A stretch of DNA of 23,950 nt from a virus: the IMG/VR virus record IMGVR_UViG_3300046011_000553, positions 1 to 23,950 of that record. One strand, 5' to 3'. Each line of letters opens with the position of its first letter. The first letter of the stretch is position 1. Below the pieces are notes generated by a model that made no database searches, was not told the DNA's origin, and was given only the letters and a program-made list of their open reading frames with translations. A program made the translations under genes and the position numbers. Positions 1 to 17,573 of the stretch are shown piece by piece.

Positions 1-11
1 ATAAAATCATA

Positions 12-236
12 ATGCGACTACTCTTACTATTATTACTTGCGGCCAATGCTCAAGCTGAAACCAAATACAATCCTTCAACACATCGATATGATACAGTTCC
101 GGCTAACACAAAAGTTCAAGCTAGATATAATCCTTATACTACAAAATATGAAATGACTACTAAAGATAGTACTATAGTATACAATCCATACTCACATACC
201 TATAACTATGTCTCAACTACAGCCAAAAAGCCTTAG
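12..236 (+). CDS. Small secreted protein with three YNP repeats
   Basis: The product has 74 residues if it starts at the ATG at 12. The frame stays open to the window edge, so the gene could begin further upstream. Residues 3-11 are a run of Leu and Ala followed by N-A-Q-A, an N-terminal signal peptide probably cleaved after Ala15. The mature part holds three imperfect repeats beginning Y-N-P at residues 19, 39 and 57, each followed by Tyr/Thr/Ser-rich sequence (the second and third read YNPY). The family is not recognised. The sequence supports export across the inner membrane, and the tyrosine-rich repeats suggest a small periplasmic or surface-associated protein. The last nine codons overlap the next gene. 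Function unknown. Confidence 0.6.
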   Translation: MRLLLLLLLAANAQAETKYNPSTHRYDTVPANTKVQARYNPYTTKYEMTTKDSTIVYNPYSHTYNYVSTTAKKP

Positions 237-492
237 TTATAGTTTAGACTATCCAGCCGAGCTTTGGGTTACCTATGCTAATCCAGCCGAAGAAACAATA
301 GCAGAACTAAGACAGCACAGTTCCGAGCTTGATGATATGTTAGCCAGTAGTATTAACTACACTTGGACTACTACCTGGCAGACTAATCAAAACTTAGTTA
401 GATTAGTTATATACATCGAGTTTACTGAAGAACGACTTAGTTGGATGCTACTCAAATATCCACAAAACAAACGAATAGTCCATATAGATTAA
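208..492 (+). CDS. Hypothetical protein, 94 aa
   Basis: The product is a 94-residue acidic soluble protein with no signal peptide or membrane segment. The ATG at 208 lies inside the upstream gene (29-base overlap) and has no clear Shine-Dalgarno sequence, so translation is probably coupled to the upstream gene. The next in-frame Met is residue 44. Residues 15-40 look helical and the second half alternates hydrophobic and polar residues (NLVRLVIYIEF) as in beta strands. I do not recognise the family. The pair at 12-492 is separated from the packaging genes by a 49-base gap with a promoter-like element, so it probably belongs to a preceding transcription unit. Confidence 0.6.
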   Translation: MSQLQPKSLSYSLDYPAELWVTYANPAEETIAELRQHSSELDDMLASSINYTWTTTWQTNQNLVRLVIYIEFTEERLSWMLLKYPQNKRIVHID

Positions 493-515
493 TTCTCAGT
501 AGATTAAGTTTGAAT

Positions 516-521
516 TAAATA
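516..521 (+). promoter_or_regulatory. TAAATA promoter-like element before the packaging unit
   Basis: TAAATA lies in the 49-base gap before the gene at 542, 26 bases ahead of its ATG and followed by the ribosome binding site AAAGGAAG (528-535). The same hexamer recurs in four other intergenic gaps of this window. It resembles the core of the T4-type late promoter (TATAAATA). No convincing -35 box was seen. Promoter activity is inferred. Confidence 0.35.
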
Positions 522-541
522 CTTAATAAAGGAAGAGATCA

Positions 542-2365
542 ATGGACATTCAACAATTACCGCTGGATAAGATAAAACCTTACTCACGCAATCCTCGTAA
601 CAATAGTCGTGCTATCAAAGTAGTAGCAGAATCAATTAAAGAATATGGCTTCCAACAGCCTATAGTTGTGGATAAAGATTATGTTATTATTGTAGGACAT
701 ACAAGATATGCCGCTGCCCAACAACTTAAACTTGATGAAGTGCCAGTTCTCATCGCTGATAATCTTAACAAAGAACAAGTACAAGCATATAGATTAGCTG
801 ATAATAAAACAAATGAATATGCACAGTGGGATGATGTACTGTTAGCAGAAGAACTTCGTGAACTAATGGCAGAGTTAGACAATAACATTAGTGAAGTTAG
901 TCGACAAAGTGCATTTACAGAACTTGAAATTGATAGACTACTTAATGGTAAAAACTATCTTGAAGACCTAGCTGAAAATAAACATAGTCGCGACGGCACT
1001 GTTAATAAGAGAATTGGTCTAGTAGTAATGAAAAACAGCTATGTCAATCGCGGTGTTGCTACCTATGTTAATGGATGGTTAGAATGGGGCTTGCGCAATA
1101 ATGTTCAAGTCGATGTTATTAGTAATGCTCCACTTGAAGATGTTTCAAACAATCAATTCAGTAGATATGAAGGTGTTAGCAATTGGTTAGCACCTGACCA
1201 TATGGATACAAGTAGACCTGACTATCTTGTTAGCCTACATCAACCAATCATTCATCTTAAGGATTGCTTAGATTTACGAACAAGTATATTAGAAGCATTG
1301 ACCAAATACAGTTTCGATGCCTTAATCATTAATAACCTTGATACACTATATTCAGTTGTAAGTCTTGGATTAGATCAATACCATCCAAATATCTATTACC
1401 CAACACATGCAGTTGAGGATGTAGGCGGTGGTAAGGGCACCTGGATTAATGATGTTACACACAAACTATTAGAATACAGCCCAATTAAATTACTCTGTCA
1501 GTCTGAACATATTCGACAAGTAGCCAAAGACTTCCTTGGTACACCTGATGATAGATTAGTAGTTGTTACACCAATGCTGGGTCAACCTGAACTATTAACA
1601 ATTGAACATACAGAAGAACCCAAAGGTATATTATACATAGGCCCATATGAAGATAGAAAGAATCCTGAAATCTTTATTAATGCATGTAAGCAATCCGGCA
1701 AGCCAGCACTACTAATTACTCCAAGTCAACACTCAGCTGATAAGTTTAAGAAGAGATTCCTACAAGAAGGTATTGAACATGAAATATATGTAGGATTAAG
1801 TGGTAAGAACAAAGTAGATGCAATGCAGAATGCCGCATTAGCTATTATACCAAGTCGAGAAGAAACATACTGCTACACAGCTATCGAAGCGGCTCATGTA
1901 TGTAGAACAATATTACCTAATGATTATGCTTGGACTGCAGCACATAAAGACTGGTGTATATTAACTGAAGAAAAAAATATCGTAAATATAGTTAATGAGC
2001 ATTATGGTCGACCCATACTTCCTGAACATCGACAAGCAATGGAAGAAAACTTTCAACTAAGTGAAGAACAAGGATGGTTAGTTATTAGTCAAACCCCAAG
2101 CAAAGAAACAGTAAATAATGCTTTGACTAAGTATATAGACAAGTTAGGTTCATCAACATTACGCAATTTCTTTAATTCAAGACCTAAGAAAGTATTTGAT
2201 GAGATGTGTTATCCAATTAAGATTATGAATCATGAGGATTATGAAATTACACAAACACTAACTGATACAGTTATTACACGATTAGGGTTTACACAACATT
2301 TCACACAAGATGAGATGTCTGATAACTTAGCTAATGTGTTTAATATAGGAACAACAGATGAGTGA
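542..2365 (+). CDS. ParB-like domain fused to GT-B glycosyltransferase
   Basis: The product has 607 residues and starts behind a good Shine-Dalgarno. Residues 1 to about 136 are a ParB-like domain of the kind found on phage DNA methyltransferases: RNPR at 16-19, GHTRYAAAQQL at 52-62, then RLADNKTNEYAQWDD at 84-98 and the linker FTELEIDRLLNG at 125-136. No methyltransferase motif (DPPY/NPPY) follows. Residues 157 to about 515 are instead a GT4-like GT-B glycosyltransferase. Its acceptor-side Rossmann start is RIGLVVMKNSYVNRGVATYV (157-176), its donor-side start ILYIGPYEDRKNPE (363-376), and its EX7E signature has E441 and E449 within PSREETYCYTAIEA. Residues 520-607 are a helical tail I cannot assign. 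It overlaps terminase small subunit by 8 bases. A sugar-transfer reaction is expected. That DNA is the acceptor is inferred from the ParB-like domain and gene position; a virion protein is the alternative. Confidence 0.8.
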   Translation: MDIQQLPLDKIKPYSRNPRNNSRAIKVVAESIKEYGFQQPIVVDKDYVIIVGHTRYAAAQQLKLDEVPVLIADNLNKEQVQAYRLADNKTNEYAQWDDVLLAEELRELMAELDNNISEVSRQSAFTELEIDRLLNGKNYLEDLAENKHSRDGTVNKRIGLVVMKNSYVNRGVATYVNGWLEWGLRNNVQVDVISNAPLEDVSNNQFSRYEGVSNWLAPDHMDTSRPDYLVSLHQPIIHLKDCLDLRTSILEALTKYSFDALIINNLDTLYSVVSLGLDQYHPNIYYPTHAVEDVGGGKGTWINDVTHKLLEYSPIKLLCQSEHIRQVAKDFLGTPDDRLVVVTPMLGQPELLTIEHTEEPKGILYIGPYEDRKNPEIFINACKQSGKPALLITPSQHSADKFKKRFLQEGIEHEIYVGLSGKNKVDAMQNAALAIIPSREETYCYTAIEAAHVCRTILPNDYAWTAAHKDWCILTEEKNIVNIVNEHYGRPILPEHRQAMEENFQLSEEQGWLVISQTPSKETVNNALTKYIDKLGSSTLRNFFNSRPKKVFDEMCYPIKIMNHEDYEITQTLTDTVITRLGFTQHFTQDEMSDNLANVFNIGTTDE

Positions 2366-2774
2366 AGAAAATAATGATAATGTAAGGAAGAGTACATTAG
2401 GACAGAAGTTTACTAAAATGGGTACAAAAGAAGTTGAAGGACAGGTTATTGGGCGCAATAAAGTAATTGTACCTAAAGATGAAGTATTCAAATTAGCACA
2501 AATCGGCTGTAAAAATCAGGAGATTGCTGATTGGTTTGGTGTTGATGAAAACACATTAACCTATAACTTTAGCGAAGAACTCTTAAAAGGCAGAGAGAGC
2601 TTAAAGCAATCATTACGCCGTGCTCAATTGAAGTTAGCACTTGGTGGAAATGCTACTATGTTAATTTGGTTAGGTAAGAATATACTTGGACAAAGTGACA
2701 ATCCAATTAACAGTGAAAGTCAGCAACCTTTACCATGGAATGAGATACCTGAGACTACTGATGATACTGAGTAA
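2358..2774 (+). CDS. terS: Terminase small subunit
   Basis: The product is a 138-residue DNA-recognition subunit of the packaging motor. Residues 42-72 form a helix-turn-helix of the terminase-small type (QIGCKNQEIADWFGVDENTL at 48-67). A helical segment, RAQLKLALGGNATMLIWLGK (88-107), follows, as in TerS oligomerisation regions. The C-terminus is acidic and low-complexity. The length is typical, and the large subunit follows at once, overlapping it by 14 bases. Start at 2358 has AGGAA at 2347-2351 and overlaps the upstream ParB-like/glycosyltransferase gene. In the family, TerS binds the packaging start site and delivers DNA to TerL. The binding site in this genome cannot be seen from the window. 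Confidence 0.85.
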   Translation: MSEENNDNVRKSTLGQKFTKMGTKEVEGQVIGRNKVIVPKDEVFKLAQIGCKNQEIADWFGVDENTLTYNFSEELLKGRESLKQSLRRAQLKLALGGNATMLIWLGKNILGQSDNPINSESQQPLPWNEIPETTDDTE

Positions 2775-3999
2775 GTGTCAACAAACAGTAGCTAATGATC
2801 GGCATAGATTCAAAGTTGTAATTGCCGGGCGTCGGTTTGGCAAATCATATCTTGCTATTAGAGAACTATGCTATAATGCTCGTATGCCTGATAAGACAGT
2901 ATGGTATCTAACATCCAGTTATCGTGCGGCTAAGATGATTGTATGGAAACCACTTAAGAAGCAATTACTTGAACTTAAATGGGTTGAGAAGATTAATGAA
3001 AGTACTCTTGAGATTACACTAAAGAATGGTAGCATTATATCACTTAAAGGATCTGACAATCCTGATAGTCTGCGTGGTGCCAGTCTTAGTTATTGTGTAA
3101 TAGATGAAGTAGCCGAAGTTGATCCTGAATTGTTTTATGAAGTAATTCGTCCTGCATTATCGGATCAACAAGGTGGTGCATTGTTCATTGGTACTCCAAA
3201 AGGTAAGAGTAATTGGAGTTATGACTTATTCACTAATCAACTTGACTATGCTGAACAATGGGCAAGTTGGCAGTTTACTACATTAGAAGGTGGCTTTGTT
3301 AGTGCCAGTGAAATAGAAGCCGCTCGTAGGGATATGAGTGATAGACAGTTCAGACAAGAGTTTGAAGCAACATTCGAAACATTTGAAGGTAGAATTGCTT
3401 GGAGTTTTGAACGCGATAAGAATGTAATGATAATCAAAGACCCTGATACTCAAGTATTACATATAGGTGTCGACTTCAATGTAAGCCCTATTACAGCCGC
3501 AATCTTTGTTAGACATAATGATGACATGCTACAGATAGATGAAGTAATGATGCACAGTAGTAATACACAAGAGTTAGCAGATGAAATAAAGAATAGATAT
3601 CCACGCAGTAGAATATTTGCTTACCCAGATCCAAGTGGTCGTGCGAGAAAGACTGCCGCTGGTGGAGCAACTGACTTTACTATATTACAGAACGCTGGCT
3701 TCACAGTCAAAGCACCATATAGACATAATGCAGTAAAAGACCGTATCAATAGTTTCAATGCGAGATTGTGCAGTAGTGATTCAGTTAGACATCTATTCAT
3801 TGATCCAAAGTGTAAGCACACTATCGAATGTTTAGACAAGTATCAATTTAAGACAGATACACAGATTCCAGATAAGGATCACGGTTGGGATCACATGTTC
3901 GACGCGGCAAGTTATTGTGTTGACTTCTTGTTTCCACTTACTAAAGACATACCAGAGGACTTTGATAGTCCGCAGACTTGGGGCCACGCCCTTGCGTAA
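2761..3999 (+). CDS. terL: Terminase large subunit (ATPase-nuclease)
   Basis: This is the packaging motor and genome-cutting enzyme, 412 residues from the ATG at 2761. An ATG at 2686 is in frame but would add 25 residues (MDKVTIQLTV...) read through terS that fit no terminase N-terminus. Starting at 2761 puts CQQTVANDRHRFKVVIAGRR at the front, as in the family. Walker A is GRRFGKS (residues 23-29). Walker B is CVIDE with D115 and catalytic E116. The coupling motif is IGTPKGKS (about 143-150). The RNase H-like nuclease domain begins at GVDFNVSP with D238. Further acidic positions are D290 in YPDPSG and D377/D381 in DHGWDHMFD. The Shine-Dalgarno is weak (GAG at 2751-2753), consistent with coupling to terS. 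Confidence 0.93.
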   Translation: MILSKCQQTVANDRHRFKVVIAGRRFGKSYLAIRELCYNARMPDKTVWYLTSSYRAAKMIVWKPLKKQLLELKWVEKINESTLEITLKNGSIISLKGSDNPDSLRGASLSYCVIDEVAEVDPELFYEVIRPALSDQQGGALFIGTPKGKSNWSYDLFTNQLDYAEQWASWQFTTLEGGFVSASEIEAARRDMSDRQFRQEFEATFETFEGRIAWSFERDKNVMIIKDPDTQVLHIGVDFNVSPITAAIFVRHNDDMLQIDEVMMHSSNTQELADEIKNRYPRSRIFAYPDPSGRARKTAAGGATDFTILQNAGFTVKAPYRHNAVKDRINSFNARLCSSDSVRHLFIDPKCKHTIECLDKYQFKTDTQIPDKDHGWDHMFDAASYCVDFLFPLTKDIPEDFDSPQTWGHALA

Positions 4000-4002
4000 T
4001 GC

Positions 4003-4008
4003 TAAATA
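4003..4008 (+). promoter_or_regulatory. TAAATA promoter-like element before portal
   Basis: TAAATA, in the context CTAAATATACATTG, lies in the 34-base gap between terL and portal, 31 bases before the portal ATG. The trailing ACATTG is almost shared with the element at 8739 (TAAATAACATTG). A loose -35-like TTGGGG lies at 3979-3984, about 17 bases upstream, inside the terL end. Promoter function is inferred from recurrence and position. Confidence 0.35.
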
Positions 4009-4033
4009 TACATTGCACCATATAGGATAACAT

Positions 4034-5461
4034 ATGAATACTTTAATCGAATTATATAAACAGGTTACATCATCAAACTATGTTTACAATCAGAACTATG
4101 CTCGTTGGTTGTTTATGTTGGAAAGCTATATGGGTGGTGAAGAATATAGACGCGGACAACATCTAAATCAATATGCTTTAGAAACACCTCAACAATATGC
4201 ACATAGACTTAATACTACACCACTTGATAATCATTGTCGTAGTGTGGTAAATGTCTACAATAGTTTTATGTTCCGCGAATGTCCTGACAGAGACTTTGGT
4301 GGACTTACAACTGACCCAACACTTCCTGACTTCTTAGAAGATGCAGACTTAGAAGGTCGTGACTTAGACTCAGTAATGAAAGAAGTTAGTACATGGACAA
4401 GTGTATTTGGACATTGCTGGATACTAATGAGCAAACCAAATATCAATGCACTAACAAGAGCAGATGAGATTGCTGCTGGAGTTAGACCTTATGTTAGTCT
4501 TGTTACTCCACTTACAGTATATGATTGGACATATGAACGCAGTGCCGTCGGTCGTTATGAACTTACATACTTCAAATATGTAGATGATGTTAATGAACAA
4601 ATCACCACAGTTATCGAATGGTACAAAGATAAGATTATTACTACAATAACTAATCGCAAACACAAAGAAGTAGTTAGTCAATCGACTGATGTAAATGAAT
4701 TGGGTGTTATCCCAGTTGTCATTGCATACAATCAACGCAGTCCTATTCGTGGTATTGGTATGTCGGATTTACAAGACATCGCTGATCAACAAAAAGCAAT
4801 CTACAATGAACTAAGTGAAATTGAACAGGGTATTAGATTAGATGGACATCCAAGTTTAGTAGCTACCGAAACAACTAAAGTAGGCTCAGGTGCTGGTAGT
4901 ATATTATATGTGCCAGAGACAATGGACCCTGGACTTAAACCATACTTACTTGATCATGGTAACACAGCCACAGAAGGTATCTGGACATCAATTGGACATA
5001 GAGTAGATGCTATCGATAAGATGGCTAACACTGGTGCTGTTCGTGCTACTGAAAGTCGTACACTATCTGGTGTTGCTATGCAAACTGAATTCCAATTGCT
5101 TAACGCAAAATTAGCTGAGAAGTCAGACAACTTAGAATTAGCAGAAGAACAAATGTGGCAGTTGTATGCAATGTATCAAGGTGCTGTATGGGATGGTGAG
5201 ATTGATTATCCTGGTAGCTTTGCTATACATGACACACAAAATGAATTCGCAAGTTTACAAACAGCTCGACAAGCCGCAACTGGTATTGATGCTATGAGTT
5301 TAATTGACCTACGATTAAGACAATTACTTGAAGATCCACGCTTATCAAATGAAATTGAAGAGCCAGAAGAATTAGCCAAATACGCAGTTGAGTTAGCAGT
5401 ATTAGCAAACCCAATAGTTGTGGCAAGTGACATTGTTCCACCACAACCAGAAGAACTATAG
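4034..5461 (+). CDS. Portal protein
   Basis: The product is a 475-residue portal protein, the ring at the capsid vertex through which DNA is packaged and ejected and to which the connector attaches. It follows terL directly and precedes scaffold and capsid genes, the expected position. Recognisable family features are the N-terminal helical segment (YARWLFMLESYMGGEEYRRG), the segment near residues 105-135 (LEGRDLDSVMKEVSTWTSVF followed by GHCWILM), the beta-rich clip or wing region (about 150-240), and the long helical section QDIADQQKAIYNELSEIEQG followed by the glutamate-rich stem near 350-380. The last 40 residues are acidic, ending PPQPEEL. AGGA at 4024-4027 is the ribosome binding site. 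No fusion to another head protein is seen. Confidence 0.85.
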   Translation: MNTLIELYKQVTSSNYVYNQNYARWLFMLESYMGGEEYRRGQHLNQYALETPQQYAHRLNTTPLDNHCRSVVNVYNSFMFRECPDRDFGGLTTDPTLPDFLEDADLEGRDLDSVMKEVSTWTSVFGHCWILMSKPNINALTRADEIAAGVRPYVSLVTPLTVYDWTYERSAVGRYELTYFKYVDDVNEQITTVIEWYKDKIITTITNRKHKEVVSQSTDVNELGVIPVVIAYNQRSPIRGIGMSDLQDIADQQKAIYNELSEIEQGIRLDGHPSLVATETTKVGSGAGSILYVPETMDPGLKPYLLDHGNTATEGIWTSIGHRVDAIDKMANTGAVRATESRTLSGVAMQTEFQLLNAKLAEKSDNLELAEEQMWQLYAMYQGAVWDGEIDYPGSFAIHDTQNEFASLQTARQAATGIDAMSLIDLRLRQLLEDPRLSNEIEEPEELAKYAVELAVLANPIVVASDIVPPQPEEL

Positions 5462-5511
5462 GACGACAATAGAATATATTCAGCAAATGAATACACCTAG
5501 AGGAAAATAAA

Positions 5512-5691
5512 ATGATTATTGAAACAACTACAACAGACGGCACACCGGGATGGAAATGGGATAAGTCAGACTTCATTCACACTGGTGAGAATGCTGAACG
5601 CAATGCTCAAATACAACGACACTATAATGTTATTGATGTTGAAGCAATGTATGCGGCACAGAAGGTAAGAGCCGAAAAAACAAATAGCTAA
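5512..5691 (+). CDS. Small hypothetical protein between portal and scaffold (59 aa)
   Basis: This 59-residue product begins MIIETTTTDGTPGWKWDKSD and ends EKTNS. It has a strong Shine-Dalgarno, AGAGGA at 5499-5504, eight bases before the ATG at 5512, in the same AGAGGAAAATAAA-type leader used by the capsid gene, which supports real translation. It starts with a Thr-rich stretch and a W-K-W motif and continues as an amphipathic helix (about residues 25-55). I do not recognise the family. Its place between portal and scaffold suggests a head assembly accessory or minor head protein; this is inference. Its stop codon overlaps a TAAATA element that precedes the scaffold gene. Confidence 0.65.
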   Translation: MIIETTTTDGTPGWKWDKSDFIHTGENAERNAQIQRHYNVIDVEAMYAAQKVRAEKTNS

Positions 5692-5694
5692 ATA
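5689..5694 (+). promoter_or_regulatory. TAAATA promoter-like element before scaffold
   Basis: TAAATA (context CTAAATAATG) overlaps the stop codon of the 59-residue gene and lies 43 bases before the scaffold ATG. A strong ribosome binding site, TAAGGAGG (5715-5722), follows and is the best Shine-Dalgarno in the window. The stop codon supplies part of the hexamer, so the evidence is weaker than for the fully intergenic copies. Confidence 0.3.
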
Positions 5695-5731
5695 ATGTAT
5701 TAACTAACCACTCTTAAGGAGGCACCGCGAT

Positions 5732-6406
5732 ATGAGCGATAACCAAATCATAGCAGGCAATACTACAGGTACTGACACTACAGCCACAGATACAACAAGT
5801 CAGGTAACAGCAAGAACTTATACTCAAGAAGAATTCGACAGTCATATGGCAGGGTTAAAATCCAGTCTGACTAAGAAATTACTTAAACCTTATGAAGATT
5901 TAGGTGATCCAACTGAGTTGCGTACACTTAAAGAACAAGCTGCTCATAAAGCTCAAGACGAGCAAATGAAGCGCGGTGAATTTGAGAAAGTACTACAAGA
6001 TCTTGCACAAAAGAAAGACTCTGAAATATCTAAGAGAGATACAGTAATTGAACAGTTTAAAGTTGAACAACCACTATTGCAGGCCGCAAGCGAGTTCAGA
6101 GCAGTTAATGCCGAACAAGTAAAACGACTATTGCGTGGTAGTGTTAGACTTAATTCAGACGGTGATGTAGAAGTAATTGATGATAAAGGCACAGTGCGAT
6201 ATAATGATGCAGGTCAACTTATTCAAGTAAAAGACCTTGTAAAAGAATTCTTAGACACTAATCCACATTTCTTATCTGCAACTCCAGCTACTGTCAATTC
6301 AAATCATTCAATTAATGCCAATTCTGGTAGTGTTGATGTATCGAAACTTGATATGAAGAATCCAGAACATAGAAAACTTTATGCCCAAACTAAGGGCATT
6401 GCCTAA
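5732..6406 (+). CDS. Capsid scaffolding protein
   Basis: The product is a 224-residue scaffold-type protein, expected to guide assembly of the capsid shell and then leave. The N-terminus (1-28) is a disordered Thr/Asp/Ser stretch. Residues about 60-120 are charged, heptad-like helix (LRTLKEQAAHKAQDEQMKRG, then FEKVLQDLAQKKDSEISKRD). A folded section (about 120-190) and a short basic tail ending KNPEHRKLYAQTKGIA follow; such tails commonly contact the capsid protein. It sits directly before the major capsid gene. No serine or cysteine protease motif is seen, so it looks like a pure scaffold rather than a protease-scaffold fusion. The strong TAAGGAGG site fits the high copy number expected of a scaffold. 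Confidence 0.75.
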   Translation: MSDNQIIAGNTTGTDTTATDTTSQVTARTYTQEEFDSHMAGLKSSLTKKLLKPYEDLGDPTELRTLKEQAAHKAQDEQMKRGEFEKVLQDLAQKKDSEISKRDTVIEQFKVEQPLLQAASEFRAVNAEQVKRLLRGSVRLNSDGDVEVIDDKGTVRYNDAGQLIQVKDLVKEFLDTNPHFLSATPATVNSNHSINANSGSVDVSKLDMKNPEHRKLYAQTKGIA

Positions 6407-6424
6407 CTTTAAAAGGAAAATAAA

Positions 6425-7264
6425 ATGGCTAATAACACAACAAATAATTCAGAATTATTCCAAAATCTTTTGGTTCAATCTCAATATGCTCTATATGAGA
6501 CATCAATTGCTCGCGCAGTATCAACAGTATTCGACTATCCAGTTGGTGCTGGTAAATCAGTATCAGTTCCATTATGGGCTGGTATTACTTCAACTAAACC
6601 TGGTGATGGCGTTGCTCCTGCAGCTGCTGACACTAACACAACAAGCAAATCAATCGACTTAGTTGAACATGTTGTTTACGCTCAAATCACTGATTTCTTG
6701 CGTGATTCAGCTCAAGAATCAGTTATTGCTGGTCTTGCTAATCAATCTGGTTCAGCACTTGCTGAAGGTATCGACAAAGAATTAGTAGCATTGTTCAATG
6801 ATGCTCTTGTAACACAAGAAATCGGTGCTGCTGGTGCTGATAATACAGTTGCTCACATTATGAAAGCTGCGGCAAAAATTCGTGCTAACAAATACACAGG
6901 TCAACTATTCGGCTTGTTAAACCCAATCCAAGCATACGGCTTGAAAGCAGCATTAACTGCAACTAACTCATACCAAGCAGCTACAACTGTTGGTAACCGT
7001 GTTTTAGAGGCTGGTTATGTTGGTACTGTAAGTGGTGTTCAATTATTTGAATCAGCTTTAGTTAATATTGATGGTGCTGGTGATGCTTCTGGTTGCGTAT
7101 TTGCTCCAGGCGCATTCGGTGTTGCACAACGCGGTGGTGTTAACATGGAAGAACAAAGAGTAGCTACAAAACGAGCAACTGACTTAGTATTATCTGTTGT
7201 TGCTGGTGCAGCTGTATTGCGTCCTGAATTAGCAGTTCGTATTTACGGTAACTCAGTACTTTAA
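6425..7264 (+). CDS. Major capsid protein (HK97-fold type)
   Basis: The product is the 279-residue shell subunit, placed between scaffold and connector genes. Features of small HK97-fold capsid proteins are an N-terminal arm followed by YPVGAGKSVSVPLWAGIT, the E-loop region near 60-90, the long spine-helix region around EGIDKELVALFNDAL, the A-domain segment KIRANKYTGQLFGLLNP, and a C-terminal beta segment ATDLVLSVVAGAAVLRPELA. No N-terminal delta domain is evident, which agrees with a separately encoded scaffold. Codon use leans to GCT, GGT and CGT more than in its neighbours, and the leader is AAAAGGAAAA (6411-6420); both are expected of the most abundant virion protein. The exact family is not certain. 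Confidence 0.85.
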   Translation: MANNTTNNSELFQNLLVQSQYALYETSIARAVSTVFDYPVGAGKSVSVPLWAGITSTKPGDGVAPAAADTNTTSKSIDLVEHVVYAQITDFLRDSAQESVIAGLANQSGSALAEGIDKELVALFNDALVTQEIGAAGADNTVAHIMKAAAKIRANKYTGQLFGLLNPIQAYGLKAALTATNSYQAATTVGNRVLEAGYVGTVSGVQLFESALVNIDGAGDASGCVFAPGAFGVAQRGGVNMEEQRVATKRATDLVLSVVAGAAVLRPELAVRIYGNSVL

Positions 7265-7283
7265 TTGTTAAGGAAAACATAGA

Positions 7284-7787
7284 ATGGCTTTTATTCGATC
7301 AGGCACGACAATAATTAGTTTCGCAGAATATCAAGATGTTTACGATACTGACCCAACTCTGTTTGATGAGAATGAAGGTCTAACTGATGATGTAATAGAG
7401 AATGCTCTAATTAGATCAACGGAAAGAATTCTAAGTCAACTTAAAAATACAGTTTGGTATAGAACACTTGCCTTACAAAATGGGGCAAGTGTCCTAACTA
7501 TTCCAGCTTTAAATGCATCAAAGATTATAAGTCGAGACAATGACTTCACTGACCTTTGTGTGTATTATAGCTTGTATCAATACATACTTCCAAAAGTAGC
7601 AGACTTCGGACAAGCAGGTGGAGCAGATACTAATGAAAAAGCTAAGATTGGTTTTTACCATGAAAAGTTTACTACATTATTAGATGAACTCTTGTTTAAT
7701 TCAGATTGGTATGACTACGATAATGGCGGTACAATTGGTGAAAAAGAATACAAACCAATGCCAACAAACTATGTGAGAATAAGATAA
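7284..7787 (+). CDS. Head-tail connector (adaptor) protein
   Basis: The product has 167 residues and follows the capsid gene after 19 bases, with TAAGGAAA at 7269-7276. It is largely helical. The N-terminal pattern (ISFAEYQDVYDTDPTLFDEN, then IENALIRSTERILSQLKNTVW) and a middle helix (FTDLCVYYSLYQYILPKVAD) resemble gp6-type or HK97-like head-tail adaptor proteins, which form a ring below the portal. The assignment rests on this pattern and on gene order, not on a diagnostic motif. Its stop codon overlaps the ATG of the next gene (TAATG), so the two are translationally coupled. Confidence 0.6.
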   Translation: MAFIRSGTTIISFAEYQDVYDTDPTLFDENEGLTDDVIENALIRSTERILSQLKNTVWYRTLALQNGASVLTIPALNASKIISRDNDFTDLCVYYSLYQYILPKVADFGQAGGADTNEKAKIGFYHEKFTTLLDELLFNSDWYDYDNGGTIGEKEYKPMPTNYVRIR

Positions 7788-8191
7788 TGCGTAGTGAATT
7801 ACTTGCTTATCTAAAAACACAGAACTTTGGGACTGTAAAAGTTGCCAGTGAATTTCCGTTTAGTACTAAAGCGGGCACTGAACCACTCTATGTAAAAAAT
7901 ACTAAAAGTATCTATGTAGACCAAGACCAAACAACTCAAGAGCCTTTGTTTAATACAATGGATGGCGGTAGCATAGTAGCTCAAACTACTAAAGTTATAG
8001 CTTACCTAACATTAGATGCAAAGACTCCATTAGTAAATTATGATAGTATTGTATCGAAATTAACAGCAGCACGAAATTTATTAGCCATTGATGGTAATTT
8101 AGATCGTACTGTAGCAGTAGCTAAAAGCTATGATGGCGATATAATGCTAACCGAATTTACTTTTGAATTTAAAGAAATACTAACACAATAA
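7787..8191 (+). CDS. Probable tail terminator (tail completion) protein
   Basis: The product is a 134-residue alpha/beta protein between the connector and tail tube genes, the usual position of tail terminators (lambda gpU-like), which cap the finished tube and join it to the head. The N-terminal helix (MRSELLAYLKTQNF) and alternating strands (KVIAYLTLDAK, DIMLTEFTFEFKEIL) match the fold pattern of that group. No catalytic or membrane features are present. It lacks its own Shine-Dalgarno and is coupled to the upstream gene through TAATG. A minor head-tail joining protein is the alternative. Confidence 0.5.
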   Translation: MRSELLAYLKTQNFGTVKVASEFPFSTKAGTEPLYVKNTKSIYVDQDQTTQEPLFNTMDGGSIVAQTTKVIAYLTLDAKTPLVNYDSIVSKLTAARNLLAIDGNLDRTVAVAKSYDGDIMLTEFTFEFKEILTQ

Positions 8192-8204
8192 AAGGAAAAA
8201 AACT

Positions 8205-8681
8205 ATGTCATATTTACAATCAGCAGCAGGTTCTAGTAACCCAACGCTAACATTGACAGTTGCCGGTAAAACAGGACCTCTAGCAGTTCCTTACTTACAA
8301 GATGTAACTATTAACAATGCTAACGATGTGTTTACTTGGAGTCAACTTAACGAATCAGCTAAGTTACAAGTAGCAACAACATCAACAAACAGTATCTCAA
8401 CTAACATCGTTGTAGATCCATTAACATTCTTTGGTAATGCTAATGTGTCTACAGCAGGTGCGGCAAGTAAATTAGGTATCATCGGTCTATCAAAAGAAAA
8501 AACATTAGTTGGCTTCACAATCAACATGGGTAATGTTGCAACTGGTGGTGGTGGTCGTACTGTATCTGGTAACGGTTATGTTACTGGTATTGCTCCAACA
8601 GTAAGTGCGGATAGCCCAGTTTGGGTTACTCCATTAACATTAACTGTTGACGGTGAGTACGATATCTCAGTAGCAGCGTAA
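8205..8681 (+). CDS. Major tail tube protein
   Basis: The product is a 158-residue beta-rich Ser/Thr/Gly/Ala protein with the leader AAAGGAAA (8191-8198) typical of the highly expressed genes here. It is followed directly by the only strong intrinsic terminator in the window, which suits an abundant structural gene at the end of a transcript. Position before the tail chaperones and tape measure supports the role of the stacked tube subunit of the non-contractile tail. Segments LTLTVAGKTGPLAVPYLQDV and PVWVTPLTLTVDGEYDISVA look like strands. A gpV-like fold is plausible but not provable by eye. Confidence 0.65.
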   Translation: MSYLQSAAGSSNPTLTLTVAGKTGPLAVPYLQDVTINNANDVFTWSQLNESAKLQVATTSTNSISTNIVVDPLTFFGNANVSTAGAASKLGIIGLSKEKTLVGFTINMGNVATGGGGRTVSGNGYVTGIAPTVSADSPVWVTPLTLTVDGEYDISVAA

Positions 8682-8707
8682 TAAGTAACTAACTGCTCTA
8701 AACAACG

Positions 8708-8731
8708 ACAGGAGCTCAGGCTCCTGTTTTT
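8708..8731 (+). terminator. Intrinsic transcription terminator after tail tube gene
   Basis: ACAGGAGC (8708-8715) and GCTCCTGT (8720-8727) are perfect complements forming an 8-bp stem with a TCAG loop. The T that closes the stem begins a run of five Ts (8727-8731). This is a textbook Rho-independent terminator on the + strand, 27 bases past the tail tube stop. The reverse strand lacks a matching T-run downstream. Confidence 0.9.
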
Positions 8732-8736
8732 GTATG

Positions 8737-8744
8737 TATAAATA
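8737..8744 (+). promoter_or_regulatory. TATAAATA late-promoter-like element
   Basis: This is an exact TATAAATA, the T4 late promoter sequence, starting six bases after the terminator T-run and 29 bases before the next ATG (8766). The terminator-then-promoter layout argues that a new transcript starts here for the chaperone/tape-measure/tip genes. The longer match TAAATAACATTG resembles the portal-proximal element. Activity is inferred, and the matching sigma factor gene is not in the window. Confidence 0.5.
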
Positions 8745-8765
8745 ACATTGTAAGGAGACTAACAG

Positions 8766-8942
8766 ATGTCAGATATATTCGACGAAAAAACAGATCAAGA
8801 GCTATTAGAGAGCTTGCTTGCTGAGGTAGCCAAAGCATCAAATGAGATGCGATGCGCTCAGCGAGATATCAACAAGGCCACAGGCCGAATTCAATTTGCC
8901 GTAATGGCACTTAACAATATGATTAATAGACCAGGAGATTAA
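8766..8942 (+). CDS. Small helical protein, 58 aa
   Basis: This 58-residue product begins MSDIFDEKTDQELLESLLAE and is predicted to be almost entirely helical, with an acidic N-terminus and a more basic middle (AQRDINKATGRIQFAV). TAAGGAGA (8751-8758) is a good ribosome binding site before the ATG at 8766. It is the first gene after the terminator and late-promoter-like element, and its stop lies three bases before the tail chaperone ATG. The pattern of an acidic LLAEVAKA helix followed by CAQRDINKA resembles small conserved proteins I associate with aquatic phages; that comparison is from memory. No function can be assigned. Confidence 0.65.
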   Translation: MSDIFDEKTDQELLESLLAEVAKASNEMRCAQRDINKATGRIQFAVMALNNMINRPGD

Positions 8943-8945
8943 CAG

Positions 8946-9287
8946 ATGAAATTAACACAAATCGCAGCAAAACCAAAACTAATAAAAGTAGAAATTAATG
9001 ACGAACAAACTATCAGTGAGTTCGGAGAAGCTCTTGAATTTTGGATTTGGGATCGTCAAAGCATGGATACTTTTGTTAAGATGGCTACAATTGATTATAA
9101 AGACTTTGGAGCATTGACACAGATTGTTCGTGATCTAGTCTTAGATGAAGAAGGTAAACCAGTAGTATCTGATGAATTAGTACTTCCTAGTCACATTTTA
9201 ATGAAGGCAATTAATGTGGTGGTAGAGACTTTGGGAAAGTCAGTAACAACCGCTATGACAGCACCGACAGAAATCTCCAGCTCATAG
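8946..9287 (+). CDS. Tail assembly chaperone, short form (G-like)
   Basis: This is the 113-residue zero-frame product of the tail chaperone locus between tail tube and tape measure, equivalent in position to lambda gpG. It begins with strands (KPKLIKVEINDEQTISEFGE), followed by an aromatic patch (ALEFWIWDRQSMDTF) and a helix-rich end. Chaperones of this kind coat the tape measure protein and recruit tail tube subunits. Ribosomes that do not shift read past the slippery site at 9233 and end at TAG 9285-9287 after residues ISSS. The Shine-Dalgarno is GGAG (8935-8938), inside the end of the upstream gene. Sequence similarity to gpG itself is weak; identity rests on locus structure. Confidence 0.75.
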   Translation: MKLTQIAAKPKLIKVEINDEQTISEFGEALEFWIWDRQSMDTFVKMATIDYKDFGALTQIVRDLVLDEEGKPVVSDELVLPSHILMKAINVVVETLGKSVTTAMTAPTEISSS

Positions 9288-9502
9288 TAGCAATCGATTT
9301 TGTTGCTAACCGTTATGGGGTGTTACCTAGTCAATTGTTGCGTGATGGTAATAGTGTAGATATGTTAGTTGCTGATACAGCACAAGGTTATAGAAATTTT
9401 CTTCAAGAAAAACAAAATGGTAAAGGTGTTAATCACCAAAATCATGGATTAAGCGAAACAGAAATGCTTAGAATGATTGAACAGGCAAAGAAAGGAGTAT
9501 AA
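8946..9502 (+). CDS. Tail assembly chaperone GT fusion made by -1 frameshift
   Basis: A -1 slip on GGGAAAG at 9233-9239 joins residues 1-98 of the G-like protein to an 87-residue extension read from 9239 to the TAA at 9500-9502, giving 185 residues. The -1 frame has no stop between the slip site and 9500. Its translation is coherent and protein-like: after the overlap it reads LQLIVAIDFVANRYGVLPSQ, then a helical segment, a Gly/Asn/His-rich linker and LSETEMLRMIEQAKKGV. The hydrophobic helix, the xxxYGVLPSQL motif and a C-terminal helix are what T-domains of this family show. The T-part binds the tape measure or tube protein in lambda. A GTG at 9320 is not needed to explain the second frame. 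Confidence 0.85.
9233..9239 (+). promoter_or_regulatory. Programmed -1 ribosomal frameshift site GGGAAAG
   Basis: The heptamer GGGAAAG fits X-XXY-YYZ, with zero-frame codons GGA and AAG. It is identical to the slippery sequence of the lambda G-T genes. It lies 46 bases before the zero-frame stop and at the right place to fuse the two chaperone frames. No strong downstream stem-loop was seen by eye; lambda also does without a clear one. Confidence 0.88.
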
Positions 9503-9504
9503 TT

Positions 9505-9798
9505 GTGTCTAAAGTAAATTTTAGAGGACTTACTACTAAACTTAAAAGAGTTAGTGATGTTAAAGATACTGTAATGCCTCAGGCATATCAATACTTTAAA
9601 GCCATCACACCTAAGCGTTCTGGTAATGCAAAAAATCGTACTCGATTAAATAATAGCAAGGACATCGAAGCGGCTTACAATTATGCTAGCTACTTAGACG
9701 AAGGTTCTAGTCGACAAGCACCAAGAGGTATGACTGAACCCACAGTAGCAAAACTTAAAAAGTTTGTTGCAGACTACATTAAGAAAATAGGAGCCTAA
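9505..9798 (+). CDS. HK97 gp10-like head-tail/tail component
   Basis: The product has 97 residues and starts at GTG 9505, supported by AAAGGAG at 9490-9496. The pattern is an N-terminal helix, ITPKRSGNAKNRTRL, a strand, NYASYLDEGSSRQAPRGMTE, then a C-terminal helix. It matches the HK97-gp10 family, whose hallmarks are a TP-x-x-SG segment, a YA-x-x-x-x-EG-S segment and a proline-containing final helix. Members act in head-tail joining or tail completion. They usually sit between the connector and tail tube genes; here the gene lies between the tail chaperones and the tape measure. The stop is one base before the tape measure ATG. Confidence 0.65.
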   Translation: MSKVNFRGLTTKLKRVSDVKDTVMPQAYQYFKAITPKRSGNAKNRTRLNNSKDIEAAYNYASYLDEGSSRQAPRGMTEPTVAKLKKFVADYIKKIGA

Positions 9799-9799
9799 C

Positions 9800-12592
9800 A
9801 TGGCTGATATATCAGTAAGTCTTGAATTAGATGACAGTAAGTATAAGTCTGGACTAAGTGCCGCCGAACGAAGTGCTAAACAGTTTAGCAGTTCAGTCAA
9901 CACAGGGCTACTTGGTAATAATCAAGCATTCAATACAATGGCTCAAGGCCTTGACAGTATTAACAGTAAATTCCAAACATTAAGTCGTGTATTAGTTGGA
10001 GCAGGTATTGTTGGCTTTGCTAACAGCCTACTTAAATCTGCTGATAACCTAGTTGACATGGCTAGAGCACTTGATGTCAGCACAGCACGCATGATGGAAA
10101 TGGGCACTGCCGCTACTATGGCTGGTGGTAATTTAGAAACCATGACCACAATGCTAGGCAAGATGGAACAGAACATTGGTGACGCATTAAATGGTAATGC
10201 CGCACTACAAAAAAGCCTAACAGCAGTAGGTGTTAGCATTGGCGACATCAACAGCAAATCACCGGATCAACTATTCAATCAGATAGCAGTGGCTATTAGT
10301 AAAGTAGAAGATCCAATGAAGCGTTCAGCATTGGCCACAGACCTATTTGGTAAGTCAGCTAAGATCATCAACTTCAAAGACTATGTACAGGGCATTGTCA
10401 GTGTATATGGTAGCATGGATCAATATGCTCGGAGCCAAGAAGATGCTGCAAGAATCAATCAACAATTAGAAATACAAGTTGGGCTACTAAAAAACGCATT
10501 TACTAGTATGCTTGCTCCAGTCCTAAGTCTAGTTGCTCCTACTGATGACATGGGTGGTGCGATGACTCGTGCCAAAGTAGCTGCTGGAGTATTAGGTGTA
10601 GCCCTAGCAGGATTTGTAGGCACGCAGGTAGTACAAGGTATTGCCGCAGTTGGTGCTGGTGTAAGATCGTTAGCTACATTTATGGGCATCAGTACTACAG
10701 CTACTAAAGTTGGTACAATAGTCACAGCCGAAAATACTATTACTACTATAGCCAATGCTAACGCACAGGCATTCTTAGCTGGTGCCGCTGGTCGTGTTGG
10801 TGCCGCATACACAGCAGTGGCTATCGCACAGGCAAACTTAAATGCCCTACAAGCAGGTGGTATTGCCACAGCCGCTGAATTAACAGCCGCAGAAACAGCT
10901 CTAACAGCCGCACAGGCAAGATTGGCCGCCGCAACTACTGCCGCCGCCGAAACACAAGCAGTATTGACAGGTGTTCAAACAGCAGGAGTTGGTTCCGCAA
11001 GTACAGCCGCAGCCGCTAACACAGCATTAGGTGCTAGTTTTCTACGCCTGTCAGGTATTATAGCCGGCGTCGCAGGTGTATTGGCACTGTTCTACTCAAG
11101 TGATTTAAACGCTGGCGAAGATGAAGAAATTGCTAAGATCAACGCACTTGGTAAAGCACTTGGCATGATGTCTAAAGAAGAACAAGACAGATACAAAAAA
11201 CTAAGTGCCTACGAACAAAATAGAATTAAAGATACTATCATTCAAAATAGTCTGTCAAAAGAACAGGCTGACATTATGTCTAAGGTTACTGGACAAGGTC
11301 AGACACCTACAGGTAACAGTTCTTTTGCTGAAAGTCCAGAGGCTAAAGCCGCCCGTGAGCGTATGCTAGCGGCTACTAAAAATGAAGCCAATGCTATCTA
11401 TGATACACTTAGAGCACAAAGATCTAGCAATGATGAGCGTGAACGCAGTCTCAGATTCCAAATTGAAAGTCTAAGCATTAGTGAAAAAGATCGTCTACTA
11501 AGTCAAATGTCAGAGCGTGATAAAATTGTTCAGTCAGCGGCATATGAAGCTGAAAAACAATATCTTACTGAAACTAGTAACCTACAGGCTAAAATCTACA
11601 AAATACGCACTACAGGTACTACAGAAGAAAAAGCACAGATCGAATCATTGTATACACTACAAAAAAATCTACGCACAGAGTATGAAGCACATCTTCCTAT
11701 TCTTAAAGAGTTAGCTAACCAATATGCTACATTACAAGAAGCTCGACAATTAAATCTATTCACTATTAGTGAAGAAATTAAACGACAAAATCAACTTATT
11801 CAGCTACAAGATGACATGGCTAAGTTGACTATGACTGAGATTGAAAAGAAATATTATGATATTGAAGCAGCCGCTCGTGCTAGTGCCAAGGCCGCAATTG
11901 AAGCAGAAGAAGCACGACGAGGCGCTAGACTAGCACCTGAAGAAGCAAAGGCCTATTATGATGCCGCATTAAAAGGCACAGAAGAACTTATACAAAAACA
12001 AAAAGAATTATACGATCAAAGTCGTGAGTTTTCAACAGGTTGGGAACGAGCATTTAAAGAATATCAAGAAAATGCAACTAATGCTGCTAAACAAGCAGAA
12101 ACAATATTTGCTAAAGCTACACAAGGTATGGAAGATGCTATTGTAAACTTTGCCAAAACTGGTAAATTTGAATGGAAATCATTTGTATCTAGCATTGTAG
12201 AAGAAATGTTACGCCAACAAGTTCGTCAATTAATTGCTAACACATTTGGTGGATTATTTGGAGGCGCAAGCGGTGGTAGTAGCGGGGGCGGAGGCGGTGG
12301 CTTATTAGGTCTAGGTGGGGTATTAGGCTTTTTAGCTGGTGGTGGACCAGCAATGGCAAATCAACCTTACATTGTAGGCGAAAGAGGTCCTGAGTTATTT
12401 GTTCCTAATTTAACAGGTACAGTAGTTCCTAATAATAAACTATCAAGTCAAGGTGTCGGTAGTACAAATGTCATCTACAATATTAATGCTGTAGATGCTA
12501 TGAGTTTCAAACAAATGGTTGCTAGAGATCCAAGTTTTATTTACGCAGTAAGTCAACAGGGTGCTAAAAGCATTCCTAGTACAAGAAGGTAA
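9800..12592 (+). CDS. Tail tape measure protein
   Basis: The product has 930 residues; the family sets tail length and is ejected with DNA. By the usual rule of about 0.15 nm per residue the tail would be near 140 nm. Residues 1-215 form an N-terminal helical domain of tail tape-measure type (SADNLVDMARALDVSTARMM and following). Two hydrophobic stretches, about 257-290 and 409-434, could cross the host membrane during ejection. Between them lies an Ala/Thr-rich helix, and residues about 435-780 are charged coiled coil. The C-terminal part is lambda gpH-like: ATQGMEDAIVNFAKTGKFEW, KSFVSSIVEEMLRQQVRQLI, a Gly-rich linker, then the signature GERGPELFVP near 860-869. AGGAG at 9789-9793 serves the ATG at 9800. 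Confidence 0.92.
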   Translation: MADISVSLELDDSKYKSGLSAAERSAKQFSSSVNTGLLGNNQAFNTMAQGLDSINSKFQTLSRVLVGAGIVGFANSLLKSADNLVDMARALDVSTARMMEMGTAATMAGGNLETMTTMLGKMEQNIGDALNGNAALQKSLTAVGVSIGDINSKSPDQLFNQIAVAISKVEDPMKRSALATDLFGKSAKIINFKDYVQGIVSVYGSMDQYARSQEDAARINQQLEIQVGLLKNAFTSMLAPVLSLVAPTDDMGGAMTRAKVAAGVLGVALAGFVGTQVVQGIAAVGAGVRSLATFMGISTTATKVGTIVTAENTITTIANANAQAFLAGAAGRVGAAYTAVAIAQANLNALQAGGIATAAELTAAETALTAAQARLAAATTAAAETQAVLTGVQTAGVGSASTAAAANTALGASFLRLSGIIAGVAGVLALFYSSDLNAGEDEEIAKINALGKALGMMSKEEQDRYKKLSAYEQNRIKDTIIQNSLSKEQADIMSKVTGQGQTPTGNSSFAESPEAKAARERMLAATKNEANAIYDTLRAQRSSNDERERSLRFQIESLSISEKDRLLSQMSERDKIVQSAAYEAEKQYLTETSNLQAKIYKIRTTGTTEEKAQIESLYTLQKNLRTEYEAHLPILKELANQYATLQEARQLNLFTISEEIKRQNQLIQLQDDMAKLTMTEIEKKYYDIEAAARASAKAAIEAEEARRGARLAPEEAKAYYDAALKGTEELIQKQKELYDQSREFSTGWERAFKEYQENATNAAKQAETIFAKATQGMEDAIVNFAKTGKFEWKSFVSSIVEEMLRQQVRQLIANTFGGLFGGASGGSSGGGGGGLLGLGGVLGFLAGGGPAMANQPYIVGERGPELFVPNLTGTVVPNNKLSSQGVGSTNVIYNINAVDAMSFKQMVARDPSFIYAVSQQGAKSIPSTRR

Positions 12593-13800: not shown

Positions 13801-16800
13801 TGGGATGGTTTGATGGAATAACGAGCATATTCAAAGGTGGCGGCATTGTAGGTGGTCTAGTTAAAACTGTGGCCATGGGTTATGTAGTCAACAAACTTAG
13901 TGCAAGTTCTACAAAAGGTAATAATAGCGGAAGTAGTATAAGTTCTACAGACATGAATGCTCCTGGCATTGATAATGGCGTTAGACTACAGGTTAATCCA
14001 GCTCCAGATGAAAAGATTCCGGTACTGTATGGTAGTGCTTTCTTTGGTGGTGTAATCTCCGAAGCTGTAATGTCAAATAATAATCAACGCATGACCTATG
14101 TGTTAACCTTAGCCGAAAAGACAGGCAATTTATACAGTTCAAGTTCCGCTACTAGTTATACCTTTGATTCAATCTTATGGGATGACCAATTAGTTTACTT
14201 TAAGGCTGATGGTGTTACGGTTGATTACACTGTTGATCGTGCTGGCAGTCGAGATGAAAGTTTAAGAGACTTAGTTAAAATTTACTGCTATGCTGGCAAT
14301 AGTAGTTCAACTAGTCAAAAATTCCCAACTGGATATAGTGGTACCGCAGTCAATGCATATAGCTTAATACCTGGATGGACAAGTGGCTATGCTATGAGCA
14401 ATTTAATATTTGCTGTGATTGAAGTAAACTATTCAGCAGCATATAATGTTAAAGGCATTGGCGATGTAACATTCCAAGTATCGAGTTCAATGTACAAACC
14501 TGGTGATGTACTATATGATTACATGACTAATTCGGTATTTGGTGCTAATATCGCCGTTGCTGAGATTGACACAGCAACTATCACAGCATTAAACAGTTAT
14601 TCTGCTAATAGTGTTACCTACACAGATGAAACTGGTAGTCATACATTGACTAATAGATATCAGATTAATGGTTTAGTTAATACCGATAATGAAGTAATGC
14701 GCAATGTTGAAGAAATTGCTAACTCAGCAGGTAGTTGGTTAAGCTACAGCGTCTTAACTGGCAAATGGGGTGTAATTATTAACCGTAGTGGTAGTAGTTC
14801 TATTGTCTTTGATGATAGTAACATCTTAGGTGGTATTAGTATCTCAGGTACTGGTTTAAAAGATCTGTACAACTCAGTTAAAACAGAATTCACTAACCGT
14901 GATATCCGTGACACTACAGATTATGTACAGGTTGTACTTCCTAACAATCTACGCAATGCTAATGAACAAGATAACACTTTAAACATTGCCTACAATTTAA
15001 TTAATGAACCAGTACAGGCACAATTACTTGGCTTTATTGAACTTAAACAAAGTCGTATTGATAAGGTAATTACATTCCAAAGTGACTATACTACTATAGG
15101 CTTAACTGCCGGTGAATTAATTAAAGTAACTAATAGCAAATTAGGCTTTAATGAAAAACTATTTCGTGTAATTAGTGTAGCAGAAGTATCTGGCGACGAA
15201 GGACTACAAAGTGAAATTACAGCCTTAGAATATGACAGTACTGTCTATGATGAGGATTTATCACGCTATACTCGTGTATTAAGTAATGGATTAATTACAG
15301 TAGGAAATATTGGTATTCCTAGTACACCAACAATTACCAAATATGAAGCTGCCGCGAGACCTCGCATTGAAATTAGTACTACAGCACCAACAGGTGTTAT
15401 CGAAGGGCTTGAATATTGGTTATCAAATGATGTTGGTGTAGGTGACGCACAGCGTAGTTATAGATTAATAGCAACTAAAGTTCCTACTAATGGCAATGCT
15501 AATGTACGAGGTACATTTATATCAGGGACCACAGTAAGTTTAGATTATGATACTATTGGTACAAGCAATCTTGTAGTTAAGACTCGTGCTTATAATAGTA
15601 CAACGGTTGGCCCATTTAGTAGCAATAGTGCTATTACTAGTTTTACAGCACAACAAACAACAGATCTAATTGGTCCTAATACCCAAGCAGTAAATGAACT
15701 TGGTGGATTAATGACTGCCTTATCGGTAGTTTCATTGTTGAATAATTTAGATGGATTATTTGGTAATAATGCGGCTTCAGCAGGAGGCCTATTTGAAAAA
15801 ATATTTGATGTCTTTAAAGATGAAACTGGATATGACATCGTAGGCGAAACAGCCGGCGGTAATTTAACAGTATCTAGTCAATTGGGTATTAAAGATGAAG
15901 GTACGCTTTTAACTAATGCGGCATCAACAATAAATTTTGTTGGTACTGGGGCAACTACTACTGTTTCAAATATTTCAGAAATAACTGTAACATTAAATGA
16001 TTCGTTTGGAACTATTTCTTCTAATAGTGGTATATCATCTACAACAGTAGCAGAAGCAGCTACTGCTTCATCTGCTAAATTAGCATTTGAATCTGCTCCT
16101 GTACAATTAGGCTGGAAAACATCTTTTGCGCCATGCTTTTTTGGATCGAGTGATACCTTAGGATTAGTAGATACTAGATATGGCATTTATACAGCTTGGC
16201 AACTTAGTCAAGGTACTGTACTTGCTTCAACTCCTGGATATGTTCCGCCGGCTGTGGTATCTTCAGGACAATATAATTTTTTAATTGATTTAATAGGTAC
16301 AGCATTAGATGCTAATATGCCTTCATTAAAAGTTTTTAGTCAAGGACAACCTCTTTCTACTTCTCCTAATCCTAATTGGAGTAATTCATTTGTAATAGAG
16401 GATTCGCCTAATTTAAATGATTATCCTGGAAAAATTTGGTGTTATTACGCAATTTGTACCTACGATGGTTCAAAAACATTACTTGAACAAGATTGGGGGA
16501 ATTGGAATTATTTATATGAGAGTAGTGGAAATGGATTATCATTTTCTGCTGCTAGTACACCTAATACTACTGTAGCTAGCACTTATGGTTCTGGTTCCTT
16601 GGGTTTACCTGGCATGAGAGATCATTGGTATTCGACGACTAATCCAATTCAAGGACGATATCAGATAGCAACTTTTGGTTCACCGGGGCCGGTGAGTGCG
16701 GCCCCTATATGTCCACTAACTCAACAATTTGGTAATAGTCCATATACAGCAGAAACTGATACAGGAATATCTTCTCCTCAGGCACCTGTTGGAAGAAATT

Positions 16801-17503: not shown

Positions 17504-17523
17504 TATTCAAAATTTAATCTAAC

Positions 17524-17529
17524 TAAATA
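17524..17529 (+). promoter_or_regulatory. TAAATA promoter-like element before the fibre block
   Basis: TAAATA (context CTAAATAATAGC) lies in the 89-base gap before the gene at 17593. It differs from the other copies in being 69 bases from the start codon, with a hairpin (17545-17573) in between, which would then lie in the mRNA leader. Confidence 0.3.
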
Positions 17530-17544: not shown

Positions 17545-17573
17545 AATTTGTACTGCCTCATGCAGTACAAGTT
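17545..17573 (+). terminator. Hairpin upstream of fibre genes: weak terminator or leader stem
   Basis: The stem is TTGTACTGC (17548-17556) with GCAGTACAA (17562-17570), a perfect 9 bp around the loop CTCAT. It extends to 12 bp with one T-G wobble and two A-T pairs. Only three Ts follow (17572-17574), so termination would be weak. It may instead stabilise or process the mRNA, or work with the TAAATA element just upstream. Confidence 0.5.

Follow-up and report, generated by a model that had tools for sequence, protein, structure and literature searches.

The uncultured virus record studied here, referred to below as the window and analysed as a whole at 23,950 bases, carries behind a tail gene a terminator-like hairpin followed almost at once by TATAAATA, the octamer of T4 late promoters. 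Late transcription of the gp55 class is known from T4-like phages and a few other large myoviruses, and the locus raises the question of whether such an element works as a late promoter in a genome of another kind and, if so, what reads it. The first-pass annotation had regarded the genome as siphovirus-type, and the PHROG profile matches agreed: ParB-like, terminase small and large subunit, portal, scaffold, major head and tail completion genes were recognised, together with tape-measure, distal tail and other tail proteins, so that the window is, by gene content, the carrier of a siphovirus-type late module. Every gene of the working map lay on the + strand, only 443 of the 23,950 bases were non-coding on that map, and gene functions were named from profile or position only. 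In particular, the 158-aa gene before the junction matched no PHROG or Pfam family, and its label of putative major tail protein follows from its position between the head and tape-measure genes. The nearest named phages by terminase were Pelagibacter and Vibrio phages and DSL-LC06, with 42-46% identity among the best 20 matches listed. The window ended in a holin-like gene and started at C36/C37, in the same order as the terminally redundant relative G008; this comparison of gene order indicates that part of the genome, probably about 4 kb of early genes, is missing. Terminal direct repeats of 107-168 bases in four records, which the virus collection had not classed as complete, gave units of 26.3-31.3 kb. 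By these measures, the family is one of siphovirus-type, small uncultured water phages of about 26-31 kb that are unrelated to T4.

Several other features of the window were observed in passing. The 1561-aa tail-fibre-like gene at 18096-22781 contains long collagen-like Gly-X-Y repeats and a 40-base stretch with a 95% match to Klebsiella phage fibre genes. The 607-aa protein encoded at 542-2365 is ParB-like in its first 150 residues, with no PHROG match in the remainder. Two small adjoining open reading frames at 8946-9502 occupy the usual place of tail-assembly chaperones with a programmed frameshift.

At the junction itself (table 1), a GC-rich 8-bp stem is formed by the arms ACAGGAGC (8708-8715) and GCTCCTGT (8720-8727) around the loop TCAG (8716-8719), and five Ts (8727-8731) follow, the first of which doubles as a stem base. 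The five bases GTATG (8732-8736) lead from the last T to the octamer, and 21 bases separate the octamer from the ATG at 8766; the stem, the five Ts, the exact octamer and the spacing to the ATG were all present in the sequence, as first annotated. A GC-rich hairpin with a T run directly after it is the form of an intrinsic (Rho-independent) terminator, and this was the top-listed terminator-like site of positions 1-12000. The terminator scan as a whole was not enriched, with nine sites found against 7.1 expected. The octamer occurred twice in the window against 3.74 copies expected from dinucleotide shuffling, the second copy lying on the - strand inside a gene (16509-16516), and the case therefore cannot rest on the window count; it is the position and the recurrence of the octamer, not its number, that exceed chance.

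Table 1. Features of the tail-gene junction and late-type promoter candidates in the window.
Feature	Position	Strand	Basis
TTAAATA, weak candidate, 20 bases before gene 542-2365	515..521	+	position
CTAAATA, portal slot, 25 bases before portal gene	4002..4008	+	position and family slot
CTAAATA, scaffold slot, 37 bases before scaffold gene; overlaps stop codon of ORF 5512-5691	5688..5694	+	position and slot
Putative major tail protein gene, 158 aa	8205..8681	+	ORF list; upstream of terminator; name from position
Predicted intrinsic terminator: hairpin 8708-8727 and T run 8727-8731	8708..8731	+	sequence; hairpin at same place in 51/51 non-redundant loci
TATAAATA, putative T4-class late promoter element	8737..8744	+	sequence; NTAAATA at homologous junction in 45/51 loci
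Shine-Dalgarno AAGGAG	8752..8757	+	sequence
58-aa ORF (cluster C9) opening the tail operon downstream	8766..8942	+	cluster in 11/11 records; no PHROG match
CTAAATA, C17 slot, 63 bases before gene 17593-18093	17523..17529	+	position and slot

We addressed the conservation of this arrangement by analyzing the DNA behind relatives of the tail gene, which were found in 127 viral-contig stretches. The best 80 were kept; 79 of these loci (L001 was excluded, as its gene runs off the contig) and the window formed the junction set, in which 74 of 80 had enough downstream DNA and six were too short; 51 of the junctions were non-redundant. The alignment used (A3) left out the DSL-LC06 row, which did not hold the homologous protein, and the rows L015 and L074. 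A strong hairpin, with a stem of at least 6 bp and at least four G-C pairs, was observed in all 51 junctions in 41 distinct stems; the hairpin was thus kept while the stem sequence changed, which supports a function in RNA. At least five Ts followed within ten bases of the hairpin in 30 of the 51. NTAAATA was found no more than 130 bases from the tail-gene stop codon at 45 junctions and was absent at the other six; the motif was ATAAATA in 35 cases, CTAAATA in six, TTAAATA in three and GTAAATA in one, and at one of the 45 (L066) it lay inside the next gene. In L007, L042, L052, L061, L063 and L067, the word GGGAGCG recurred just behind the tail-gene stop codon, ahead of the hairpin.

The motif was then followed through the genomes of the relatives, a sample that is redundant in part. 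ATAAATA showed a strand ratio of 132:3 in 86 partly redundant loci, and in a set of 20 records it was found 80:0, on the late-gene strand only, in every record. In genomes whose genes all run one way, many words are unevenly spread over the two strands, so that strand asymmetry alone is weak evidence, and we used the intergenic share and the depletion on the opposite strand instead. In 11 records, in which 5.4% of the bases were intergenic with genes from a simple home-made caller, 41 of the 56 coding-strand sites were intergenic and 15 genic, and a single site lay on the minus strand. No other of the 21 7-mers composed of five As and two Ts had so large an intergenic share; the remaining 20 ranged from 1 to 58%, the 58% belonging to TAAATAA, which overlaps the motif, and their minus-strand counts were 15-67. 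Shine-Dalgarno sequences and T-runs aside, ATAAATA was the most intergenic 7-mer of all. It is its own reversal, which left the reversed-word control empty. CTAAATA was moderately enriched in the family (16 intergenic and 12 genic sites in the 11 records), and enrichment of T as the first base was not clear. In a profile of 53 intergenic sites, the information lay almost wholly inside the seven-base core. The sites fell into recurrent gene slots: in the 11 records, [AC]TAAATA was counted 11 times before the scaffold gene, eight times at the tail junction (C9), six times each before the small terminase gene (two of them from one record) and the portal gene, and five times in the C17 slot, the scaffold slot being occupied in every record. 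The negative controls, two phages of Pelagibacter and two of Vibrio whose terminases are related, lacked the intergenic bias (intergenic/coding sites: HTVC112P 1/19, HTVC026P 0/21, Vibrio 1.157.O 3/8 and 1.206.O 0/6), and the positive controls gave 10/15 for the T4 late region and 8/6 for the cyanophage DSL-LC02. The window itself held four ATAAATA or CTAAATA sites on the + strand, each inside an intergenic gap or at its margin, and one on the - strand; its CTAAATA sites may be late-type elements, judging from position and the moderate family enrichment. An inverted repeat without a T run, TTGTACTGCCTCATGCAGTACAA (17546-17571), lies in the leader between the CTAAATA at 17523 and the gene at 17593. 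Taken together, and as far as sequence can tell, the pairing of a terminator with a T4-style late start signal appears as a switch that the family conserves and uses across its genomes.

We thus consider it quite likely that the terminator and the T4-class late promoter form a real operon junction and are part of a genome-wide late regulon. Transcription through the head and major-tail-protein genes would stop at the intrinsic terminator, and a separate tail-assembly and tape-measure transcript would start from TATAAATA; in T4 the octamer occupies positions -13 to -6 and transcription starts about six bases after it, and, if this spacing holds, the 5' end is predicted near 8750. The junction would belong to a late regulon with the consensus [AC]TAAATA and no -35 element, the non-structural genes would be served by ordinary sigma70-type promoters, and the dose of the tail protein would be uncoupled from that of the tail-assembly genes. 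Promoter activity, late timing and dose uncoupling are what we infer from the comparative data. Regarding the early part of this scheme, sigma70-type sites (TTGACA-N16/18-TATAAT, at least 11 of 12 positions) were counted 28 times on the + strand and six times on the - strand in 12 records, with 11 perfect sites among those listed; the intergenic ones among those listed lay nearly all in non-structural regions, and a few overlapped the late element. Near-consensus promoters in the non-structural region point to early transcription by the host enzyme, and the pattern resembles a split into early genes under sigma70-type promoters and late genes under the motif.

The first-pass annotation had called the octamer a T4-type late promoter. 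In its DNA the element behaves so: a TATAAATA-type core without a -35 lies on the coding strand ahead of structural genes, and it is repeated in front of late genes throughout the family. What found no support in the genomes searched is the T4 machinery, as no gp55-like sigma factor or T4-type clamp was found in cis. The gp55 profiles phrog_234 and phrog_12791 matched in none of 21 records, the sigma region 2 profile PF04542 (Sigma70_r2) and the sliding-clamp profile phrog_223 in none of 13, and a cyanophage gp33 used as the sole query gave no match. A gp55 HMM built from 11 proteins gave nothing convincing in 12 genomes (weak matches, best E 0.05-1.5); as a control, a second HMM built without two of the proteins recovered both (6e-33 and 3e-14), and the profile searches do give matches in cellular control genomes. 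These searches took in four terminally redundant assemblies, the window itself being incomplete. As these searches found no gp55 or clamp homologue, the comparison with T4 is one of DNA elements; a host clamp could serve in place of phage gp45. The reader that we think most likely is a small early protein encoded by the phage, so diverged that it escapes recognition, which would work with the host RNA polymerase.

A universal early gene was sought among nine clusters searched iteratively, and none was found: only the terminase small subunit occurred in all searched genomes except G014, where the gene is cut, and non-structural gene content varied strongly, none of the eight non-structural clusters tested being universal. 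A scan of 90 non-structural proteins, drawn from six records, gave no polymerase or sigma factor among the families listed (25 of 28 Pfam, 25 of 33 PHROG). Replication-like genes consisted of a primase and a DUF5906 helicase-like gene in G006 and a weak, non-significant polymerase-like match in G008, and no replication gene was recognised among the families listed for the other scanned records. Three individual proteins were set aside as a recognisable gp55 relative or polymerase. A Zn-ribbon protein, C22 (seven of 12 genomes, one a short match), had a model pLDDT of 65, no fold match and no gp55 similarity; the early protein C23 (127-146 aa) showed no gp55 similarity either; and C161, considered as a polymerase, gave a model with pLDDT 59 and had DNA polymerase I among its top fold matches at a non-significant best E of 0.58. 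C161 (L103:9883-11040) and C85 (L092:7324-8913) share D..CCAP/LEHDG-like motifs and may be small polymerases.

In T4-like phages, late factors and polymerases carry a clamp-binding tail at the C terminus, as in T4 gp55 and in the DSL-LC02 polymerase, which ends in LEDFFS. A C-terminal tail of the form hydrophobic-x-x-L-F, a motif picked after the data had been seen, was present in eight of the 151 non-structural proteins that were 70 aa or longer compared with none of 189 late proteins and none of 221 control open reading frames. In C23 (L136-L155), 19 of 20 viral-contig members, some of them copies of one contig, carried the L-F tail after a loose linker when Y was allowed in the first position. 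Given this resemblance to clamp-binding tails, C23 is hypothetically an early protein that binds the clamp and could serve as a coactivator, although it is not present in all members. L-F tails were also observed on unrelated early proteins of the relatives G001, G003, G004, G007, G008, G009 and G014.

Since gp55 and the clamp were not found in cis, late transcription could be borrowed, as raised by the first-pass annotation. In the explicit form of this idea, a co-infecting T4-like phage would provide the late factor in trans, and the family would parasitise its gp55/gp33/gp45-type late transcription; we regard this as unlikely. It would fit the failure to find gp55, the clamp, a universal cluster among the non-structural ones tested, or a polymerase or sigma factor among the families listed for the six records. 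The motif is also identical to the NATAAATA described for T4-like cyanophages (PMC2984593) and is present in the T4-like DSL-LC02, which comes from the same lake as DSL-LC06. One member encodes an AAA+ protein with relatives in 1188 phage records, mostly of T4-like size among the 20 matches listed; this protein (L092:4008-4799) and that of L097:1278-2246 both match phrog_1250. However, the near-consensus sigma70 promoters imply the host enzyme for early transcription, and the primase and helicase-like genes of one record, with the non-significant DNA polymerase I fold match of another, also speak against a helper. DSL-LC02 is a cyanophage, whereas the predicted host of DSL-LC06 belongs to the Pseudomonadota. 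Moreover, most known satellites have relatives in bacterial genomes, but a search of the bacterial genome collection for a prophage or host link yielded no relative of the tail protein. A related version, in which the family would be a prokaryotic counterpart of virophages, made up of small tailed phages with complete virion genes and with late genes dependent on the sigma factor and clamp of a T4-like phage, seems a little less likely still.

It is improbable that a sigma factor of the host reads ATAAATA as a -10-only promoter. Such a reading, the other option of the first-pass annotation, would account for the lack of a recognisable phage sigma factor, but it is disfavoured by the sites themselves: around 53 intergenic sites there was no -35 element and no excess of TGn (four sites against 3.3 expected), and host promoters of the extended -10 or the -35 kind were dropped on that ground; the TAnnnT of a sigma70 -10 is missing from ATAAATA; and a T in front of the motif, giving TATAAA, was present in 19 of 63 sites and missing from 44. 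The same genomes hold ordinary sigma70-type promoters elsewhere. Very improbable is an RNA element, in which AUAAAUA would be a cleavage or stability site beside the hairpin and not a promoter. AU-rich sequence by a hairpin is the usual setting for RNase E-type processing, and hairpin and motif were adjacent in 45 of 51 loci; yet an element acting in sense RNA has no need of near-absence from the minus strand, and the motif keeps a strict seven-base core and occurs in other gene slots. A last reading takes the octamer for an AT-rich word that happens to follow an ordinary terminator. It fits the window count, which is not above expectation, but is contradicted by what divergent relatives conserve, both at this junction and in other slots, and it can practically be dismissed.

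Under the favoured reading, a late promoter read by a diverged phage protein, a family of small water phages unrelated to T4, in which a recognisable gp55 was not found, would have a T4-style promoter as its chief late signal. A T4-type promoter without a recognisable gp55 suggests either an undescribed class of late factor or the takeover of another phage's late machinery, and the terminator-motif junction offers a simple metagenomic signature for the family. Titles and abstract openings of the literature on late promoters, gp55, siphoviruses and satellites included no paper on such a family. DSL-LC06 (proposed Nanhuiviridae), published as a complete 29.8-kb circle, is a terminase relative of the window and has ATAAATA 7:1 by strand; the window tail gene had no match in any phage-collection record, DSL-LC06 included, and the word promoter does not occur in the main text of the DSL-LC06 paper. 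Virophages, which are described as carrying giant-virus late promoters (PMC6723459), provide a possible analogy, a small virus equipped with the late promoter that belongs to a larger virus; they are eukaryotic and unrelated, and the dependence of the present family is hypothetical. With the T4 late promoters (TATAAATA; gp55, gp33 and gp45), the family has in common the core octamer, the lack of a -35, the coding-strand bias (TATAAATA is distributed 13:3 by strand in the 75-115 kb region of T4) and the placement before head and tail genes. Unlike T4, its genome is small and siphovirus-type, searches found no gp55, sigma-region-2 or clamp homologue, and the first base of the motif is relaxed, with CTAAATA in use. 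In this last respect it resembles the T4-like cyanophages such as S-PM2, which encode gp55, gp33 and gp45 and for which the late promoter NATAAATA is described (PMC2984593): in both, the first base is free and the motif is intergenic and on one strand, although the cyanophage DSL-LC02 measures 168 kb compared with about 26-31 kb for the family. Another case is rV5, reported as a phage without gp55, gp33 or gp45 homologues that carries the T4-like late motif TggTAaAAtA (PMC3606486); its motif is degenerate and known there from eight copies, whereas in the family the core is strict over its seven bases and recurs in many genomes.
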